Notes under the pieces: generated by a model
The model's input: the letters and a program-made list of their open reading frames with translations, nothing else
What the model was told of the DNA's origin: nothing
Databases searched by the model: none
In this document: one piece after another, positions 1-6,672 of the stretch
Position numbering within the stretch: position 1 is the first letter of the stretch
Layout of the letters: each line of letters starts with the position of its first letter
Source: Promethearchaeota archaeon
GTDB lineage: Archaea; Asgardarchaeota; Lokiarchaeia; Sigynarchaeales; SOKP01
Assembly: GCA_004524425.1 (NCBI GenBank)
Contig: SDNN01000066.1
Coordinates: forward strand, 1 to 12,661
DNA length: 12,661 nucleotides
Direction of reading: 5' to 3'
Program-made: the position numbers and the translations under genes

Positions 1-713
1 AACTCCAAAGAGTATTGTTCTTGTTTTGTGTCTTGTAATAATTGATCAGATTTAGGGATTTCTTGAAGATCTTTAGGGACTTCCTCTGTCATTTGATGAT
101 ATTCTTTTATTAAAGTTGGGGACTTTCTTTGAGAATCCTCAACAAATCTTTTAACCCATTTAAAGAAATCTAATGTATTGGGGATTTCTAATTCATATTC
201 GACTTCATGATAATCTTCAGACCGCTCATCAGCAAAATTATCTAACCGATATATCTCAAAACCTAAATTTTCATCCTTATCCATCTCAGTATAATCAAAA
301 ACAATTATAAAACCATTGGGATTTTCCTCATTTTGAATATATCTAAGATTCCTTTTGTAAGTGTCGGTTAAAAAAAGGCCCCAATCGAGATTGGAAACAT
401 ACAGACCTACAATTTTAAGACTTTGATTCATGTAATTCTTTTCTATCATCTTAAAATTATCAAGTATTGTCGGAGAGAAACCACTTGAGACTTTTTGTCC
501 GTGTATTAAAGGGATGGCATTAATTAAACGGGTATTTTTTCCATTAGGATCGACTTTACCTAAGCATACCCCCATTACCTCTGAGTCATTATCCAAATTT
601 TTATTTCCATGTTTTAATACGTGAGTGAGCATGTTACGAAAGGCCTCTTTTGAGATTATGACTTTGTTTTTATCTTTAGTATCAGTTTTATTAGATTCTG
701 GTGAATTTGCCAT
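1..713 (-). CDS. MPN-domain protein with degenerate metal site (MPN-minus, Rpn8/CSN6-like type), C-terminus outside window
   Basis: The reading frame starts at ATG 713-711 and runs open for 237 codons to the window edge, so the C-terminus is missing. I identify it as an MPN fold by ungapped similarity to the neighbouring JAMM protein: SEVMGVCLGK (E45 kept), GLYVSNLDWG, ENPNGFIIVFD and NLGFEIYRLD. In the JAMM motif the two histidines are V106 and N108, the serine is T116 and the aspartate is Y119, so it should not bind catalytic zinc. Known MPN-minus proteins act as structural partners of active MPN proteins, and that role is inferred here. The gene lies 4 nt after the upstream stop codon. A purine-rich AGAGGGA inside the last codons of that gene probably serves as its ribosome binding site, so translation is likely coupled. 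Residues 200-237 are polar and probably lead into a helical tail. Confidence 0.85.
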   Translation of the reverse strand, partial: MANSPESNKTDTKDKNKVIISKEAFRNMLTHVLKHGNKNLDNDSEVMGVCLGKVDPNGKNTRLINAIPLIHGQKVSSGFSPTILDNFKMIEKNYMNQSLKIVGLYVSNLDWGLFLTDTYKRNLRYIQNEENPNGFIIVFDYTEMDKDENLGFEIYRLDNFADERSEDYHEVEYELEIPNTLDFFKWVKRFVEDSQRKSPTLIKEYHQMTEEVPKDLQEIPKSDQLLQDTKQEQYSLE

Positions 714-717
714 TTTC

Positions 718-2157
718 TTAGTCCCTCTTGTTTTTCAATTTTTTCATTTCATTTAATAATTCTTTTTTTTCAGATTCTATTGATTTAATCTTTTTGTTGA
801 TCATATCTTTAGAATCTTTTAGGTTTGAGGTCAATTCTTCAAACTTGGAGGAGTAATCATTAACTTGTTCCTTTAAAGATGATAAATCGGTTGTAAAATT
901 ATGTACTTTCTCGAAAAACGATTTATTAAGCCTTTCTTGAAGATTTTTTACTTCCACAATTGCAGTATTTTCTAAAGAAGAAATTTTTTCTGCTAGGTCC
1001 CGCATGGATTCTTGATTTTTATTTAAGTTTTCTTCATTATTGATGGCTTTCTGATTAAGATCTGATATATCTTTCACAGCAGCTTCGAAAAAGTCCGAGA
1101 TACTAGTTATGCTTTTATTCAACTCCTCTTGAAATAGCGTTTCTAAGTGTTGAATGACCTCTTTTTTGAGTGAATTTAATTTATTCTTGTTTTCTTCTTG
1201 TTGAGCATCGAAAATTTCGAATTTATCATCAATAAAGAGATCAACTTCGTTTAACTGATCTTTAATAATGTTTTTAACTTTATTTTGTATTTGGTGAATC
1301 CCCTGAGTTAAATTGTCTTTTAAAGTAATAAGATCCTTTCTCATTTGGACATTATTATCCATGATATTCTTTACAATCTTTTGACTCCATTTATTTAGGA
1401 GCTCAGCTAATGGATTGATGGAAAAATCTAAAAATTGAAGGATACCCTCTTTTAAATTCGTTATTAAGATATCTGTATTAATTTCTGGTTTTTTTACCAA
1501 GATTTCATTTTGATCGGGAAAATATATCTCACCGAATGGATCGGGTGTTTCATTAATTTCTAATATTAAGGGTTCTTTGGCATGTATTTTATTAATCAAA
1601 TCCATCAGTTTTGAGTAATATTCTACACTATCCGGTGGCTCAACAATGGTTTTTACTTCATAATATCCTGATTTCATTCCCTTTTCATGATCCTCAAGTT
1701 TAAAAGTCCTGAATCCTAAATCCCCTTCATTATCCAAGTAAGTATGATCAAATACTATTCCAATTCCATGAGGATTTTGGTCTGTCTGCCAAAATAATTG
1801 ATTTTGTACGTCAGTAGAAGACCAGAAGATCTGTAGACCAGGATGTGAATGATACCAGCCTACTGAATGCTTACCTTGACTAAATGCCTCTTCATCTATT
1901 TTTGCGAAAGTTGGATAGTCTTCCATTGAAAATGCTACTTCTATAGAACCTCCATGAGAAATAGGAACAGCATCCTCGACTATAACCTTCGAATCTTCTA
2001 AATGACCAATAAGAATTCCCATTACTTCCTTAAATTTTCTCGGATCTCTAACCTTATTGCCAAATCTTAGAACGTGAACCAGCATTTTATAATACGCATT
2101 TGGTTTAATGATTACTAGCTCATCATCCGTTTCTTTTTTGGAGCGTCGTTTACTCAA
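718..2157 (-). CDS. JAMM/MPN-plus metalloprotease-type protein with long C-terminal coiled coil
   Basis: A 479-residue protein. Residues 12-175 form an MPN domain with a complete JAMM zinc site: E44 in KEVMGILIGH, then GWYHSHPGLQIFWSSTD giving H103, H105, S113 and D116 with the standard HxH-x7-SxxD spacing. Eukaryotic relatives with this site (Rpn11, CSN5, AMSH) remove ubiquitin-like proteins; the substrate here is unknown. About residues 245-479 are Lys/Glu/Asn-rich heptads, a long coiled coil probably used for assembly. The start is TTG: an in-frame TGA lies two codons upstream, and the first ATG (codon 25) would cut off the first strand that the downstream paralogue retains. A GTGAG motif sits a few bases upstream of the TTG. 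It is the first gene of an operon with the MPN-minus paralogue. No signal peptide or membrane segment is visible, so it is likely cytosolic. Confidence 0.9.
   Translation of the reverse strand: MSKRRSKKETDDELVIIKPNAYYKMLVHVLRFGNKVRDPRKFKEVMGILIGHLEDSKVIVEDAVPISHGGSIEVAFSMEDYPTFAKIDEEAFSQGKHSVGWYHSHPGLQIFWSSTDVQNQLFWQTDQNPHGIGIVFDHTYLDNEGDLGFRTFKLEDHEKGMKSGYYEVKTIVEPPDSVEYYSKLMDLINKIHAKEPLILEINETPDPFGEIYFPDQNEILVKKPEINTDILITNLKEGILQFLDFSINPLAELLNKWSQKIVKNIMDNNVQMRKDLITLKDNLTQGIHQIQNKVKNIIKDQLNEVDLFIDDKFEIFDAQQEENKNKLNSLKKEVIQHLETLFQEELNKSITSISDFFEAAVKDISDLNQKAINNEENLNKNQESMRDLAEKISSLENTAIVEVKNLQERLNKSFFEKVHNFTTDLSSLKEQVNDYSSKFEELTSNLKDSKDMINKKIKSIESEKKELLNEMKKLKNKRD
2155..2157 (-). promoter_or_regulatory. 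TTG start codon with GTGAG ribosome binding site
   Basis: Reading the minus strand, GTGAG precedes TTG by six bases, and an in-frame TGA sits two codons before the TTG. No ATG occurs until codon 25, inside the conserved fold. The paralogue downstream has a comparable N-terminal stretch before the same strand, which supports the TTG start. Confidence 0.6.
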
Positions 2158-2435: not shown

Positions 2436-3098
2436 TCACTTGTGAGGAAGTGGCTTTCCACAATAGGGACAAAATTTAAATGAAAGATCCTTTCCACAAT
2501 AAGGGCAGAAAACTTTATCCTCTTCATTTACAGGAGCTTCTTTTTCCTTCGTAGCCCCTCCTGGAATGGATGGTAATGTTCTAGACGATTTCATCGTTGG
2601 GGCTGCTTTTGCTGCCTCCTCTTCCTTTTTAGCTGCCATTCTAGTTTGAAACGCCTGGCGCATCTCTTCTTCCTTCTCTTGAGCAGTCACCATTCCCTCC
2701 TCTTTAACCCATCCTTTCGATTGGGGTCTTTTGATTTCACTTTGAGGTACTTTTTCCAATTCTACTTTACGAGTCTCTTCGACTGGAGCAACAATCCTCT
2801 TTTCACTCCTCCTCTGTACAGCTTGTTTAACTAATGCTTGTACAGTTTTCATTATTTGATGAGGATTGATGTTCGGGATTGCAACGGTCCTGAGAACCCA
2901 CCCTACTATATAATTCTGATTGGGAAATTCGCCAGATATTTCTGTTTCTTTATAGACATATGAATCAATCACATCTTTACCTTTCATAATTCGTGAAGCC
3001 CATTTTTCATTAATTAATCCTAATTGAAGTCTATAAGAGGTTCCAGAAATGCCGAGCTGTGAGGTTAAAGGTATGAATCCTTGTTCTGTTATAATCAT
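2436..3098 (-). CDS. Uncharacterised protein with C-terminal zinc ribbon
   Basis: A 220-residue protein I do not recognise. Residues 1-98 look like a compact alpha/beta domain: alternating hydrophobic strands (YRLQLGLI, YIVGWVLRTVAI) then an amphipathic helix around 79-97. Residues 100-195 are highly charged, Lys/Glu/Ala-rich and probably disordered or a single helix. The C-terminus holds two CPYCGK knuckles, with C198, C201, C210 and C213 forming one zinc ribbon, a fold used for protein, RNA or DNA contacts. No catalytic motif is visible. It lies between two MPN-domain loci, on the same strand as one and divergent from the other, so a link with the MPN proteins is possible but rests only on position. 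The start is ATG. GGTG lies almost against the ATG, too close for normal use, which fits a leaderless transcript. Confidence 0.85.
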   Translation of the reverse strand: MIITEQGFIPLTSQLGISGTSYRLQLGLINEKWASRIMKGKDVIDSYVYKETEISGEFPNQNYIVGWVLRTVAIPNINPHQIMKTVQALVKQAVQRRSEKRIVAPVEETRKVELEKVPQSEIKRPQSKGWVKEEGMVTAQEKEEEMRQAFQTRMAAKKEEEAAKAAPTMKSSRTLPSIPGGATKEKEAPVNEEDKVFCPYCGKDLSFKFCPYCGKPLPHK

Positions 3099-3338: not shown

Positions 3339-3356
3339 ACAAAATTTTTGCTTAAA

Positions 3357-4316
3357 ATGACTGTCATAATTCCGAAAAAGGCATATTTAACTGTAGTGGC
3401 CGCATGTGTCCGCTTTGCTAATCAAAAAATTCCAAGAGATAAATGGCTCGAAGTGAGTGGAATATTCATAGGTAAAAATGAAAAAAACAGGGAAAGCAAT
3501 GTTATAATTTCAGAGGCTCATCCAATAATGCATCAGACTTATGACCCAGAAGCAATTGTAGATAAGTATGTGTGGTCGGATGAGGACATGGTATCCTTAT
3601 CAATCATCGATGAACAAGCATTCAATAAGGGTGAATTCGTTATTGGATGGTGGCATTCACATCCAGGGTTTAAAGTAATGCTATCAGAGTTCGGAGATAG
3701 ACGAACTACCGTATTTTATCAGAGTAATAATCCTTTAGCCATAGCTTTAGTCTTTAATCCTGAAAGACTTACTAGACAAATAGAAGCAGGAGAAAAGATG
3801 GGAGATCCCGTAAAGCAATTAAAAAATGATCCGGGATTCAAGATTTTTAGACTAGAAGATGGGAATGATGAAAAAAGTAATTTTATAGAAGTTGACTATA
3901 GAATCGAAGGTTTCGACAATATGGAAGAATTAGTCAAAGAAACTCAAAAATTTATCATAGATATTACCAATTTTTTTCCAAAAGACGATTTATTTAAAAA
4001 ATATGAATCTTTCATTGATGAGAGGATTACCAGATTAAATTCCTTAATAATCGGAACTGAAGAGTATCTAAAAACTTTAATAAGGCAAGGTGAGAGGAAT
4101 AGAGTTCCAGAAGTACTAGACAATCAGAAAAAAGAAATTAGAAGGTTTGTGGCTGAAACATTCATAAAAGTTGGAAATATTAAAGAATACATGAATTTTT
4201 TAGAGTATAAAGAAAGAGAAACAACCATACCAATGGTTCATGAAATATTATCGCGATGGGATCAGACCATTTCAAAGTTGGATGAAAGATTGAATGAAAT
4301 TTCTAACAAATTCTAA
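3357..4316 (+). CDS. JAMM/MPN-domain protein with shifted metal-site aspartate and helical C-terminal tail
   Basis: A 319-residue protein counted from ATG 3357; a TTG at 3348 would add three residues but is less likely. Residues 1-185 form an MPN domain related to the two minus-strand MPN proteins: EVSGIFIGK (E32), GWWHSHPGFKVMLSEFGD (H100, H102, S110), NNPLAIALVFNP and GFKIFRLED. Aligned without gaps, the metal-site Asp position of SxxD is G113 and an Asp follows at 114. The enzyme may therefore use a shifted ligand, bind zinc weakly or be inactive. An insertion at about 138-155 separates the VFNP strand from the GFKIFRLED strand. Residues 200-319 are helical and charged, a shorter coiled coil than the 479-residue paralogue. 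Known relatives cleave ubiquitin-like conjugates; the substrate here is unknown. It is transcribed alone and ends before a strong terminator-like element. Confidence 0.85.
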   Translation: MTVIIPKKAYLTVVAACVRFANQKIPRDKWLEVSGIFIGKNEKNRESNVIISEAHPIMHQTYDPEAIVDKYVWSDEDMVSLSIIDEQAFNKGEFVIGWWHSHPGFKVMLSEFGDRRTTVFYQSNNPLAIALVFNPERLTRQIEAGEKMGDPVKQLKNDPGFKIFRLEDGNDEKSNFIEVDYRIEGFDNMEELVKETQKFIIDITNFFPKDDLFKKYESFIDERITRLNSLIIGTEEYLKTLIRQGERNRVPEVLDNQKKEIRRFVAETFIKVGNIKEYMNFLEYKERETTIPMVHEILSRWDQTISKLDERLNEISNKF

Positions 4317-4470: not shown

Positions 4471-6672
4471 ATGAAGAGAATTAACTTTCCATTTCCTGCG
4501 ATCCTTGGCCAAGATAAGATGAAGATGGCATTGATCCTGAATGTCATTGACCCCTTAATAGGTGGTGTGTTATTATCTGGTCATCAAGGTACTGGGAAAT
4601 CTACAGCAGTTCGCTCGCTGGTAGAAGTCATGCCCAAAATAGAAGTAATTGAAGGATGCCAATTTGCTTGTGATCCTAAATCTAATTTAGATGACTTATG
4701 TGTTGAATGTAGAAAAAAAAAAGAGAAGGGAGAATTAAAAACTCAAGTCAAGGAAATGCGATTAATTAACTTACCATTGGGAGTTACGGAAGACATGGTC
4801 TGTGGAAGTCTTTCCATTGATAAAGTACTCACAGAAGGCACGTCAGAGCTTCATCCAGGATTATTAGCCAAAGCCAATCGCGGAATTTTATATGTTGACG
4901 AGATTAATCTATTGCAAGATCATATTATCGATGTACTCTTAGATTCTGCAGCTTCAGGAATAAATATAATCGAGAGAGAAGGTATTTCCGTAGCTCACCC
5001 CTCTAGATTCGTGCTGGTAGGATCCATGAACCCAGAAGAAGGAGAATTAAGGCCTCAAATAGCTGATCGTCTTGGATTAGAAGTTAAGATTAAAGCACCA
5101 CGAGAACCTGCTTTACGTGCCGAAATTACAAGAAGAGTTATTGAATTTAACGATAATCCGAAAGATTTCATAAAAAAATTTCAAGATGAACAAGAAGTAC
5201 TGAAAGAAAAAATAATCAAGGCACGCCAAATTATTAATGAAGTTGAAATTCCGGTTAAGATTTATGAATTAGTTTCAAAAATCGTAAATGATTTAGGAAT
5301 CTTTTCTCAACGAGCAGATATCACCTTTATCAGATGTGCAAGAGCTAATGCGGCTTTTAATAATAGAAAAGTAATCTCAATGAAAGACCTCACCATGGCA
5401 ATGGATCTGGTATTTGAACATAGAATAGCATCTCTACACTACGAGTTAACTCCAGAGGAAATAAAGGGGAAAATAGCTGAAGTTTACGGAAAGATTGAAA
5501 AAGCGTATGAGGATCCTAAAATTTATCAACCAAATAAAGATACTGAGGGTCCACTAAAACATGATGACACGCCTCAAAAAGAATTCCAAAGACAATCAAT
5601 AGACCCGGATAAAGTTGATATTCCAGAAACTAAGGAACAAAAACTACCCCCTCCCAAATATCCAGATGAAAAAAAAAGAAAAGCTAGCCCTGCTGAAGGA
5701 TGGAAAGTTAAGGATATTCCCATTGATGATGAATTTAATCTTTCAAATACCAATATAGATGTCATTCCTTTCATTTATAAGATGGAAAAAAAAATGACTT
5801 CCATATTAGATAATATCAGGAAAGAGAGAAAAATTTCAGATTATGGCGGAAGGGGCATCGGAAGGAGAATTAAAGTAGCATCTTCGCAAAAAGGCAGGTA
5901 TGTATCCTATAGAACTCCCATTAATGAACCAAAAAGTATCGCTCTGGATGCAACCATCAGAAATTATTTGAAAAATGTGTGTTATAATGAAACCAATATC
6001 AATTTTCCCATACATTTTAATAAATATGATCTAATGGACAAGATTTATGAATATAGGGCGCCACTGATTTTATTTTTTGTTCTTGACAGTTCTGCTTCCA
6101 TGTACTATGTTATAAAGCAGATGACGGATGTAATATTAAGTTTACAAAAAGAAGGCTATAGAAAAAAAGACAAATTATGTTTAATTTTGTTTAGAGGTAA
6201 AGAGGCAATTGTTCTTCAAAAACCCACGGTTAATTTCAAGAGCGCTATAAGTAAACTTAAAAATATTGAAGGAAAGTCTTATACTCCCATGGCTGCAGCA
6301 TTAATTAAGTGCTTGGAACTAATTAAAATTGAAAAAATGAAAAATAAAAACATCGTACCTGTTATTTTTGTCTGTTCGGATTGCGGAGCAAACATTTCCG
6401 TGAAGCATCCTAATTTAGTAGCACAAGTGGAACACGATTATACTCTTATTACTGAAGAATTAAAGGAATTGACAAAAAAATTATCGAAACAAAAAGTGCA
6501 TTTAGTAGTTTTGGAACCGAAAAAATCTTACGCCACTAGAGCTTTAGGAGTTCATACATATTCAGCAGAGCAAATTAAACAAAATTTTAAAATACATTCC
6601 AATGCAAAAATATATCAATTTGATAAATATAATCCTTCTGCTTTAATGCTTGAACTTAAGAAAATCCTGTGA
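4471..6672 (+). CDS. Fused ChlI-ChlD-like AAA+/VWA ATPase (magnesium/cobalt chelatase family)
   Basis: A 733-residue protein. Residues 1-340 form an AAA+ module of the magnesium-chelatase I type: Walker A GHQGTGKS (37-44), Walker B ILYVDE (139-144), sensor GSMN (N187) and the arginine-containing ADRLGLEV. A four-cysteine insert (C63, C67, C77, C80) probably binds zinc and is typical of the standalone members of the family. Residues 345-430 are a proline- and lysine-rich linker. The C-terminal VWA domain (about 530-733) has a complete MIDAS: DSSAS (D539, S541, S543), T605 and D637 in CSDCG. The family drives metal insertion into tetrapyrroles with a large CobN/ChlH subunit, which is not present here; many fused homologues have no known substrate. 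The start is ATG with no ribosome binding site. The ATP-grasp gene follows 41 nt later and is probably co-transcribed. The AAA+/VWA call is sure; the metal-chelatase role is not. Confidence 0.9.
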   Translation: MKRINFPFPAILGQDKMKMALILNVIDPLIGGVLLSGHQGTGKSTAVRSLVEVMPKIEVIEGCQFACDPKSNLDDLCVECRKKKEKGELKTQVKEMRLINLPLGVTEDMVCGSLSIDKVLTEGTSELHPGLLAKANRGILYVDEINLLQDHIIDVLLDSAASGINIIEREGISVAHPSRFVLVGSMNPEEGELRPQIADRLGLEVKIKAPREPALRAEITRRVIEFNDNPKDFIKKFQDEQEVLKEKIIKARQIINEVEIPVKIYELVSKIVNDLGIFSQRADITFIRCARANAAFNNRKVISMKDLTMAMDLVFEHRIASLHYELTPEEIKGKIAEVYGKIEKAYEDPKIYQPNKDTEGPLKHDDTPQKEFQRQSIDPDKVDIPETKEQKLPPPKYPDEKKRKASPAEGWKVKDIPIDDEFNLSNTNIDVIPFIYKMEKKMTSILDNIRKERKISDYGGRGIGRRIKVASSQKGRYVSYRTPINEPKSIALDATIRNYLKNVCYNETNINFPIHFNKYDLMDKIYEYRAPLILFFVLDSSASMYYVIKQMTDVILSLQKEGYRKKDKLCLILFRGKEAIVLQKPTVNFKSAISKLKNIEGKSYTPMAAALIKCLELIKIEKMKNKNIVPVIFVCSDCGANISVKHPNLVAQVEHDYTLITEELKELTKKLSKQKVHLVVLEPKKSYATRALGVHTYSAEQIKQNFKIHSNAKIYQFDKYNPSALMLELKKIL

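Follow-up and report, generated by a model that had tools for sequence, protein, structure and literature searches.

Conserved pair of paralogous JAMM/MPN genes in Lokiarchaeia, with repeated decay of the metal site in one member

We analysed a stretch of 12,661 nucleotides (nt), hereafter the window, comprising positions 1–12,661 of contig SDNN01000066.1 (assembly GCA_004524425.1, Promethearchaeota archaeon), which its nearest relatives place in Lokiarchaeia. At one end of the window lie two adjacent paralogous genes of the JAMM/MPN family, which we term A and D (Table 1). A encodes a protein with an intact metal site (MPN+) and D a paralogue that has lost it (MPN−). The A/D pair is real, conserved and mechanistically suggestive, and the site of one of its members decays repeatedly.

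Table 1. Features of the locus in the window
Feature	Coordinates	Strand	Description
A	718–2157	−	MPN+/JAMM protein of 479 amino acids (aa), TTG start; MPN domain at about residues 15–165, long helical, coiled-coil-like C-terminal part
D	3–713	−	MPN paralogue with lost metal site; 237 aa within the window, open at the window end
A–D junction	711–727	−	A stop TAA (720–718), 4-nt spacer gaaa, D ATG (713–711); ribosome-binding-like sequence GAGGG in the last codons of A
g1	2436–3098	−	220-aa protein encoded upstream of A, with a conserved domain at the N-terminus and a zinc ribbon at the C-terminus
T	3348–4316	+	Third MPN/JAMM gene, divergent from g1-A-D; its own clade, outside the A/D pair
AAA/VWA gene	4471–6672	+	AAA/VWA protein resembling fused I-D subunits of Mg/Co-chelatase

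The Pfam domain JAB (PF01398) is found above its cut-off in A (1.1e-13), and the protein carries the JAMM metal site as E44/H103/H105/S113/D116, that is, a Glu plus H-x-H-x7-S-x2-D within the MPN/JAB domain. D has the MPN fold by its matches to JAB (3.4e-8) and UPF0172, both above cut-off, and its site reads E45/V106/N108/T116/Y119; only the Glu is retained and four of the five residues are changed, to Val, Asn, Thr and Tyr, which makes it MPN−. An earlier note on this DNA had given the same residues for both proteins. It had also described the two as aligning without gaps over the metal site, which is true inside the HxHx7Sx2D stretch, but BLASTP (29% identity over 225 aa, E 1e-26) places short gaps between the Glu and His-x-His. 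A profile of A comes nearest to structures of Rpn11-like proteins, Rpn11, CSN5 and BRCC36, the best match in the PDB being 6fjv (CsRpn11, 2.7e-14). A is a probable ubiquitin-cutting isopeptidase.

The window cuts D short. A 255-aa protein from a contig of 3,687 bases (P0005) has an N-terminus identical to the final 30 residues of the window D, and probably continues it to a full D of 462 aa, helical in its tail as A is; in L001 and L002, the two closest relatives, D measures 462 and 461 aa. Across 57 A–D junctions the spacing ranges from −26 to +17 nt. The 25 nt preceding the called D start contain GGAGG in 33 of the 57, GAGG, GGAG, GGGG or AGGG in 16 and none of these in eight, so that a ribosome-binding-like sequence stands just upstream of D in 49.

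Counts for the pair were taken from relatives of the window genome. A one-genome-per-species scan with an alignment of A provided a locus set of 80 loci (L numbers), kept out of 411 matched and picked by similarity to A; by title, 76 belong to Lokiarchaeota/Lokiarchaeia or Helarchaeota and four to Bathyarchaeota or Sigynarchaeum. Tables for the class (83 genomes, G numbers) and the phylum (227 genomes) were tallied by eye from match lists reaching to about 1e-30, with at most 20 candidates scored per genome in the class search and at most seven in the phylum search.

A is directly followed by a second MPN gene in 56 of the 80 loci, as well as in the window; the other 24 hold fragments or other MPN types. 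Of the 83 class genomes, 59 have D matched over its full length (E up to 3.8e-100). In 56 of these A adjoins D, and in three (G035, G054, G071) D lies within 0.7 kb of a contig end; full-length D without A was not found in the 83 genomes except at such ends. In two further genomes (G012, G073) the D that accompanies A is divergent or fragmentary, and the remaining 22 lack a D match at the full-length level, the best being the single-copy relative in G005 (1.6e-58). Restriction of the pair to the window genome is thereby rejected, and the conservation for which the earlier note had proposed a survey is confirmed. The phylum search (129 of 227 genomes with any match, within the candidates scored) gave no D-level match outside the class, where the best value, 3.4e-29, is at the level of general MPN similarity.

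The metal site is fixed in A. EHHSD is found in 54 of the 57 A proteins of pair loci, the remaining three being truncated or broken rows, and in all 120 listed A homologues (the best 120 of 344 found). A separate oddity is seen in L032:2-1870 (+), where a single TGA interrupts A at a place where other A proteins carry Trp; sequencing error, mutation or recoding are all possible.

Among the 57 D proteins, 13 have EHHSD, 12 QHHSD, four EHHTD and four EIRTT, with 20 further patterns that include EVNTY of the window and one cut row. The cut row (L048) was left out of the D trees and of all D counts of 56. E-H-H-S/T-D is retained in 17/56 usable D, and 39/56, the window included, have lost at least one site residue; with 17 members retaining the site, MPN− is not a fitting label for the whole D family. 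A list of 120 D homologues (the best-scoring 120 of 226 found) divides into 59 intact and 61 not, in a sample that is neither random nor wholly new, 10 of its members being identical to a locus D over the compared stretch. One clade of 11 D (L033, L038, L040–L046, L049, L054) has exchanged the Glu for Gln and kept the zinc ligands (10 QHHSD, one QHHAD), which suggests a domain that may still bind zinc and yet is silenced.

All trees of A, D and T were built from archaeal sequences. A quick tree of 182 MPN rows separates A and D into two clades (support of 99 and 97 by the Shimodaira–Hasegawa-like approximate likelihood ratio test) with T as a further clade, and a more careful tree, built from 56 D and 11 A without the site columns, gives A and D one clade each with support 100/100. 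When the D tree is rooted with A, its two earliest branches comprise seven rows, of which six are intact (L021, L051 and the L024 group). The seventh, L053, is a broken D on a long branch and weighs against a simple equation of early with intact; the placement of the long-branch rows L053, L055, L047 and L020 is unsure. The D tree needs at least 10 losses of the site if regain is excluded, and an unordered fewest-changes count of intact versus broken, with regain allowed, gives five. Minimum changes per site are eight for E44, 14 for H103, seven for H105, 12 for S113 and eight for D116. The loss in the window D is common to L001, L002 and L003. Because of these losses the dead state of D is most simply seen as derived inside Lokiarchaeia, repeatedly and still only in part. 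The earlier note's description of an MPN-plus/MPN-minus pair is therefore true of the window and too narrow for the family. Standing apart from the pair, a 291-aa MPN protein at L056:2143-3018 (+) obtains nearly equal scores from the profiles of A (217.8) and D (204.9) and falls between both clades in the tree.

D evolves faster than A. Mean pairwise identity over the MPN domain is 0.43 for D versus 0.63 for A, and D is the lower in 1375 of 1378 taxon pairs (53 taxa, after removal of L032, L048, L053 and L054). The ratio of nonsynonymous to synonymous substitution rates (dN/dS) over the MPN domain is 0.10–0.31 in 11 closely related pairs whose D site is broken and 0.09–0.40 in three pairs with an intact one, with 0.03–0.15 for A in the same 14 pairs. 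Dead D is thus maintained by purifying selection. We rejected D as a pseudogene, given these ratios in the broken pairs and its open reading frame in relatives.

We ranked conservation over 179 MPN positions, using for A an alignment without L032, L048 and L054. The site residues of A rank between 5 and 23 and are all invariant; those of D rank 61, 105, 32, 73 and 65. The top 40 positions of D include A22, F23, M26, H29, L31, R32 and F33 of alpha1 and F182, W184, V185 and E190 of alpha4. Dimers of Rpn11-Rpn8, Rpn8 and CSN6 are described as using the alpha1/alpha2 surface and a swapped alpha4 (PMC4140821). Such conservation in D fits a subunit retained for dimerisation.

In a structural model from L002, each chain consists of an MPN domain and a helix of ∼180–200 residues (H253–453 and H763–941), and the long C-terminal helices may form a coiled coil. 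Against BRCC36 structures, the matches of a model in which A and D are fused run, for 8py2, 5cw4, 5cw3 and 6gvw, from the A MPN domain to model residue 679 in alpha4 of D, and for 6h3c stay within 10..218 of A; as these ranges give the first and last aligned residues only, the span across domains is a hint at most.

The layout of the A/D pair appears nearest to that of BRCC36-Abraxas, which we regard as the best analogue, claiming no membership in eukaryotic complexes. BRCC36-ABRAXAS/ABRO1, the core of BRCA1-A and BRISC, likewise combines an MPN+ subunit with an MPN− partner devoid of a zinc site, and BRCC36 chains are among both the structural and the sequence matches. In the BRCC36-ABRAXAS system both chains are described as an MPN domain plus a coiled coil, with the MPN− chain activating the enzyme and with an MPN dimer held by beta-sheets, unlike Rpn11-Rpn8 (PMC7692841). 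A/D differs from it in that the decay of the partner is repeated and incomplete, with 17/56 intact. From Rpn11-Rpn8 of the proteasome lid and from CSN5-CSN6, A/D differs by the 180–200-residue C-terminal helices seen in the model. A direct relationship of D to Rpn8 was rejected by sequence, as the match of a dead-D profile to Rpn11 (7.7e-10) is far stronger than that to Rpn8 (3.7e-4). The PCI domain PF01399 was detected in 79/83 class genomes, but also in 2/14 control genomes, and many of the rows come from short matches repeated within open reading frames of ∼800 aa, presumably winged-helix proteins. In this weak test no PCI partner was identified at the pair locus, the nearest among the matches listed lying ∼8 kb away (G055).

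Two archaeal enzymes also invite comparison. CsRpn11 of Caldiarchaeum subterraneum is, like A, an archaeal JAMM protein; its gene stands beside a ubiquitin operon, and the protein is monomeric in solution and crystallised as a homodimer via H1 and H4 (PMC6043591). A, by comparison, is accompanied by a paralogue and bears a long helix. A single-copy MPN-coiled-coil JAMM protein of Helarchaeota resembles A in layout and in profile score (A versus D, 209.8 versus 144.2 in L057 and 201.8 versus 154.5 in L060). Unlike A, it has no D partner that we found beside it, and it follows an E2 gene, plus an E1-like gene in L057. In their account of CsRpn11, Fuchs et al. give the active/inactive heterodimer organisation as not known in archaea (PMC6043591), and our literature search, of incomplete coverage, found no later report of one.

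A link of the pair to ubiquitin comes from gene content. E2 is present in 79 of the 83 class genomes, as is a ubiquitin-family match, and the single-copy relative of A in Helarchaeota stands in the order E1-E2-JAMM in L057 and E2-JAMM in L060. Because class genomes hold E2 and ubiquitin, and because the Helarchaeota relative follows E2 in L057 and L060, a deconjugating role is likely for A, with ubiquitin as a putative substrate. The L057 cluster (L057:6420-13429) comprises an E1-like ThiF, E2, the MPN-coiled-coil JAMM, a second ThiF-like gene on the opposite strand and a VWA-like protein, the last two named by eye or similarity.

We read the conserved gene pair, the A/D phylogeny, the repeated loss in D, the purifying selection on dead D and the common architecture as most likely reflecting a heterodimer. 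At a probability of roughly 0.6, we infer that in Lokiarchaeia A and D join into a heterodimeric JAMM isopeptidase, which would strip ubiquitin-like modifiers from proteins. A single duplication, older than the divergence of the sampled genomes that carry the pair, would have given two active copies that stayed in one operon as adjacent genes, with translation probably coupled. A would have kept the catalytic zinc site and D would have become a structural and activating subunit, whose own site was thereby free to decay, some 10 times, with its dimer-holding surfaces preserved. Pairing of the MPN domains might go through alpha1/alpha2 and alpha4, as in Rpn11-Rpn8, or follow the other mode, that of BRCC36-Abraxas, and the two long C-terminal helices would combine in a common coiled coil. 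It is about an even bet that Lokiarchaeia harbour a graded series of a single obligate heterodimeric isopeptidase, in which both sites are active (EHHSD/EHHSD), one is silenced but retains its zinc ligands (EHHSD/QHHSD) or one is ruined (EHHSD/EVNTY). The MPN+/MPN− arrangement would then have evolved again independently outside eukaryotes, and its intermediates would survive in present-day genomes.

Several observations weigh against this heterodimeric isopeptidase. Close spacing of A and D by itself means co-expression, not binding, and the 17 intact D proteins may still be active, so that a role as scaffold only does not hold across the family. Conserved residues in alpha1 and alpha4 serve the fold as well, and one site residue of D, H105, is also within its top 40. 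Long coiled coils are equally compatible with homodimers, and the single-chain model of the A–D read-through has a predicted template modelling score of 0.46, with the relative placement of the two domains not fixed. As to the substrate, no relative of the L057 E1 or E2 was seen near the pair, in the examined DNA of the pair loci or in the window, which sets the pair apart from an operon of CsRpn11 type; among the 80 loci and the window such relatives occur only in L057 and L060. Even the single-copy relative adjoins E2 in just two of the seven Helarchaeota loci inspected, the other five lacking such a neighbour. In G001, E2 and a JAMM gene lie together at C1:1854876-1856065, with the pair far off at 579896-582706, and in G002 JAMM, E2 and ubiquitin genes lie at 565737-568571, with the pair at 2465607-2468450.

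One alternative is that A and D each pair with themselves, or have different partners such as g1 or T, and that D decays through redundancy. Each has its own long helix in the model, g1 and T are conserved neighbours, and CsRpn11 is a homodimer in the crystal, albeit a monomer in solution (PMC6043591). D is kept beside A, however, with dN/dS well below 1 after loss of its site. Redundant genes are normally lost, and we consider this alternative unlikely. Somewhat more doubtful still is D as a stand-alone reader or decoy, which would bind ubiquitin-like modifiers without cutting them and would not need A, the operon being merely common to both. The QHHSD state of 12/57 D, with the catalytic Glu alone changed and the zinc ligands kept, is as expected of a non-cutting binder, and the faster evolution of D also agrees with one. 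However, many D have lost zinc ligands too (EVNTY of the window, EIRTT, ELHSG), the best-kept residues of D include some in alpha1 and alpha4, the helices through which known MPN pairs dimerise, and in the class search full-length D was found without A only at contig ends.

The earlier note had called the pair 'independent or ancestral', and the two halves of that phrase fare differently. As ancestral stock, the pair would have given rise to the eukaryotic MPN+/MPN− heterodimers (Rpn11-Rpn8, CSN5-CSN6, eIF3h-eIF3f, BRCC36-Abraxas). The Asgard source, the nearness of the A profile to Rpn11-like, Rpn11, CSN5 and BRCC36 structures, and the MPN-plus-coiled-coil layout that both chains share with BRCC36 and Abraxas as described (PMC7692841) would suit this. 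We hold it to be very improbable, given that the deadness of D is derived inside Lokiarchaeia, that D-level matches are confined to one class among the candidates scored in the 227 genomes, and that dead D resembles Rpn11 more than Rpn8. Independence from eukaryotic Rpn8, CSN6 and Abraxas is favoured over an older shared duplication on these archaeal trees, because D is the sister clade of A, six of the seven earliest rows are intact, D-level matches lie in one class among the candidates scored and dead D matches MPN+ proteins better.

Read as a heterodimer, A/D looks like a separate replay, in archaea related to the ancestors of eukaryotes, of the eukaryotic pairing of a working with a non-working subunit. 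Eukaryotic MPN+/MPN− pairs are old and fixed, so the loss of the site in a second subunit is hard to watch there. Related genomes with intact, partly lost and wholly lost second sites therefore make it possible to ask whether catalysis still requires an active D, whether its losses were tolerated or favoured and which surfaces are essential. Asgard ubiquitin biology would also gain a candidate deconjugase of more than one subunit, distinct from the Rpn11-like enzyme encoded in the operon.

The order of the locus is often conserved, with T on the opposite strand and then g1-A-D. The g1 family has 51 sequences, including the window, and lies as a rule immediately upstream of A. Its N-terminal domain is modelled with a predicted local distance difference test score of ∼90, finds no confident match in the PDB and carries the N-terminal motif IPNINPHQxMKTTQ. 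The g1 protein is a possible partner of the pair.

T, which the earlier note had not listed, has in the window all five types of site residue, but in the form H-x-H-x7-S-x3-D, where Ser and Asp are one residue further apart than in the canonical site. The 50 T-type rows comprise 33 with S-x2-D, nine with S-x3-D (window included) and eight split pieces. The S-x3-D proteins (LSGFGD or LSEFGD) are those of the window, L018, L023, L034, L041, L043, L048, L055 and L064; A and the other unsplit T have S-x2-D. In four genomes T is split at the identical place, between His-x-His and Ser-Asp (L012:7824-8801, L014:7883-8869, L026:6997-7981, L035:7955-8942 (−)), by an insertion of 30–31 nt with a similar small hairpin and stops; T is uninterrupted in other genomes. 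Purifying selection on both pieces is strong (dN/dS 0.06–0.11 in the nine of 12 comparisons that were computable). The insertion may be a mini-intron or a bypassed stretch, or may mark a split protein.

Beyond T, genes recur for AAA/VWA (43 loci, window included here and in the following counts), ATP-grasp (37), roadblock (34), coiled-coil (30), PHP (23) and DUF5714 (13) proteins. The AAA/VWA gene mostly comes right after T; its likeness to fused chelatase subunits is to TIGR02442, below cut-off, and no other genes of the chelatase pathway were seen in the window. A different arrangement occurs at L072:9221-10882 and L073:9227-10894, each of which encodes one protein that joins TPR repeats, MPN/JAB and a C-terminal winged helix, resembling an archaeal TPR-MPN-PCI fusion. 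The winged helix matches PCI in L072 (3.4e-9) and gives weak helix-turn-helix matches in L073. Each of these two TPR-MPN genes directly follows a gene that, by eye, resembles a Ras-type small GTPase.

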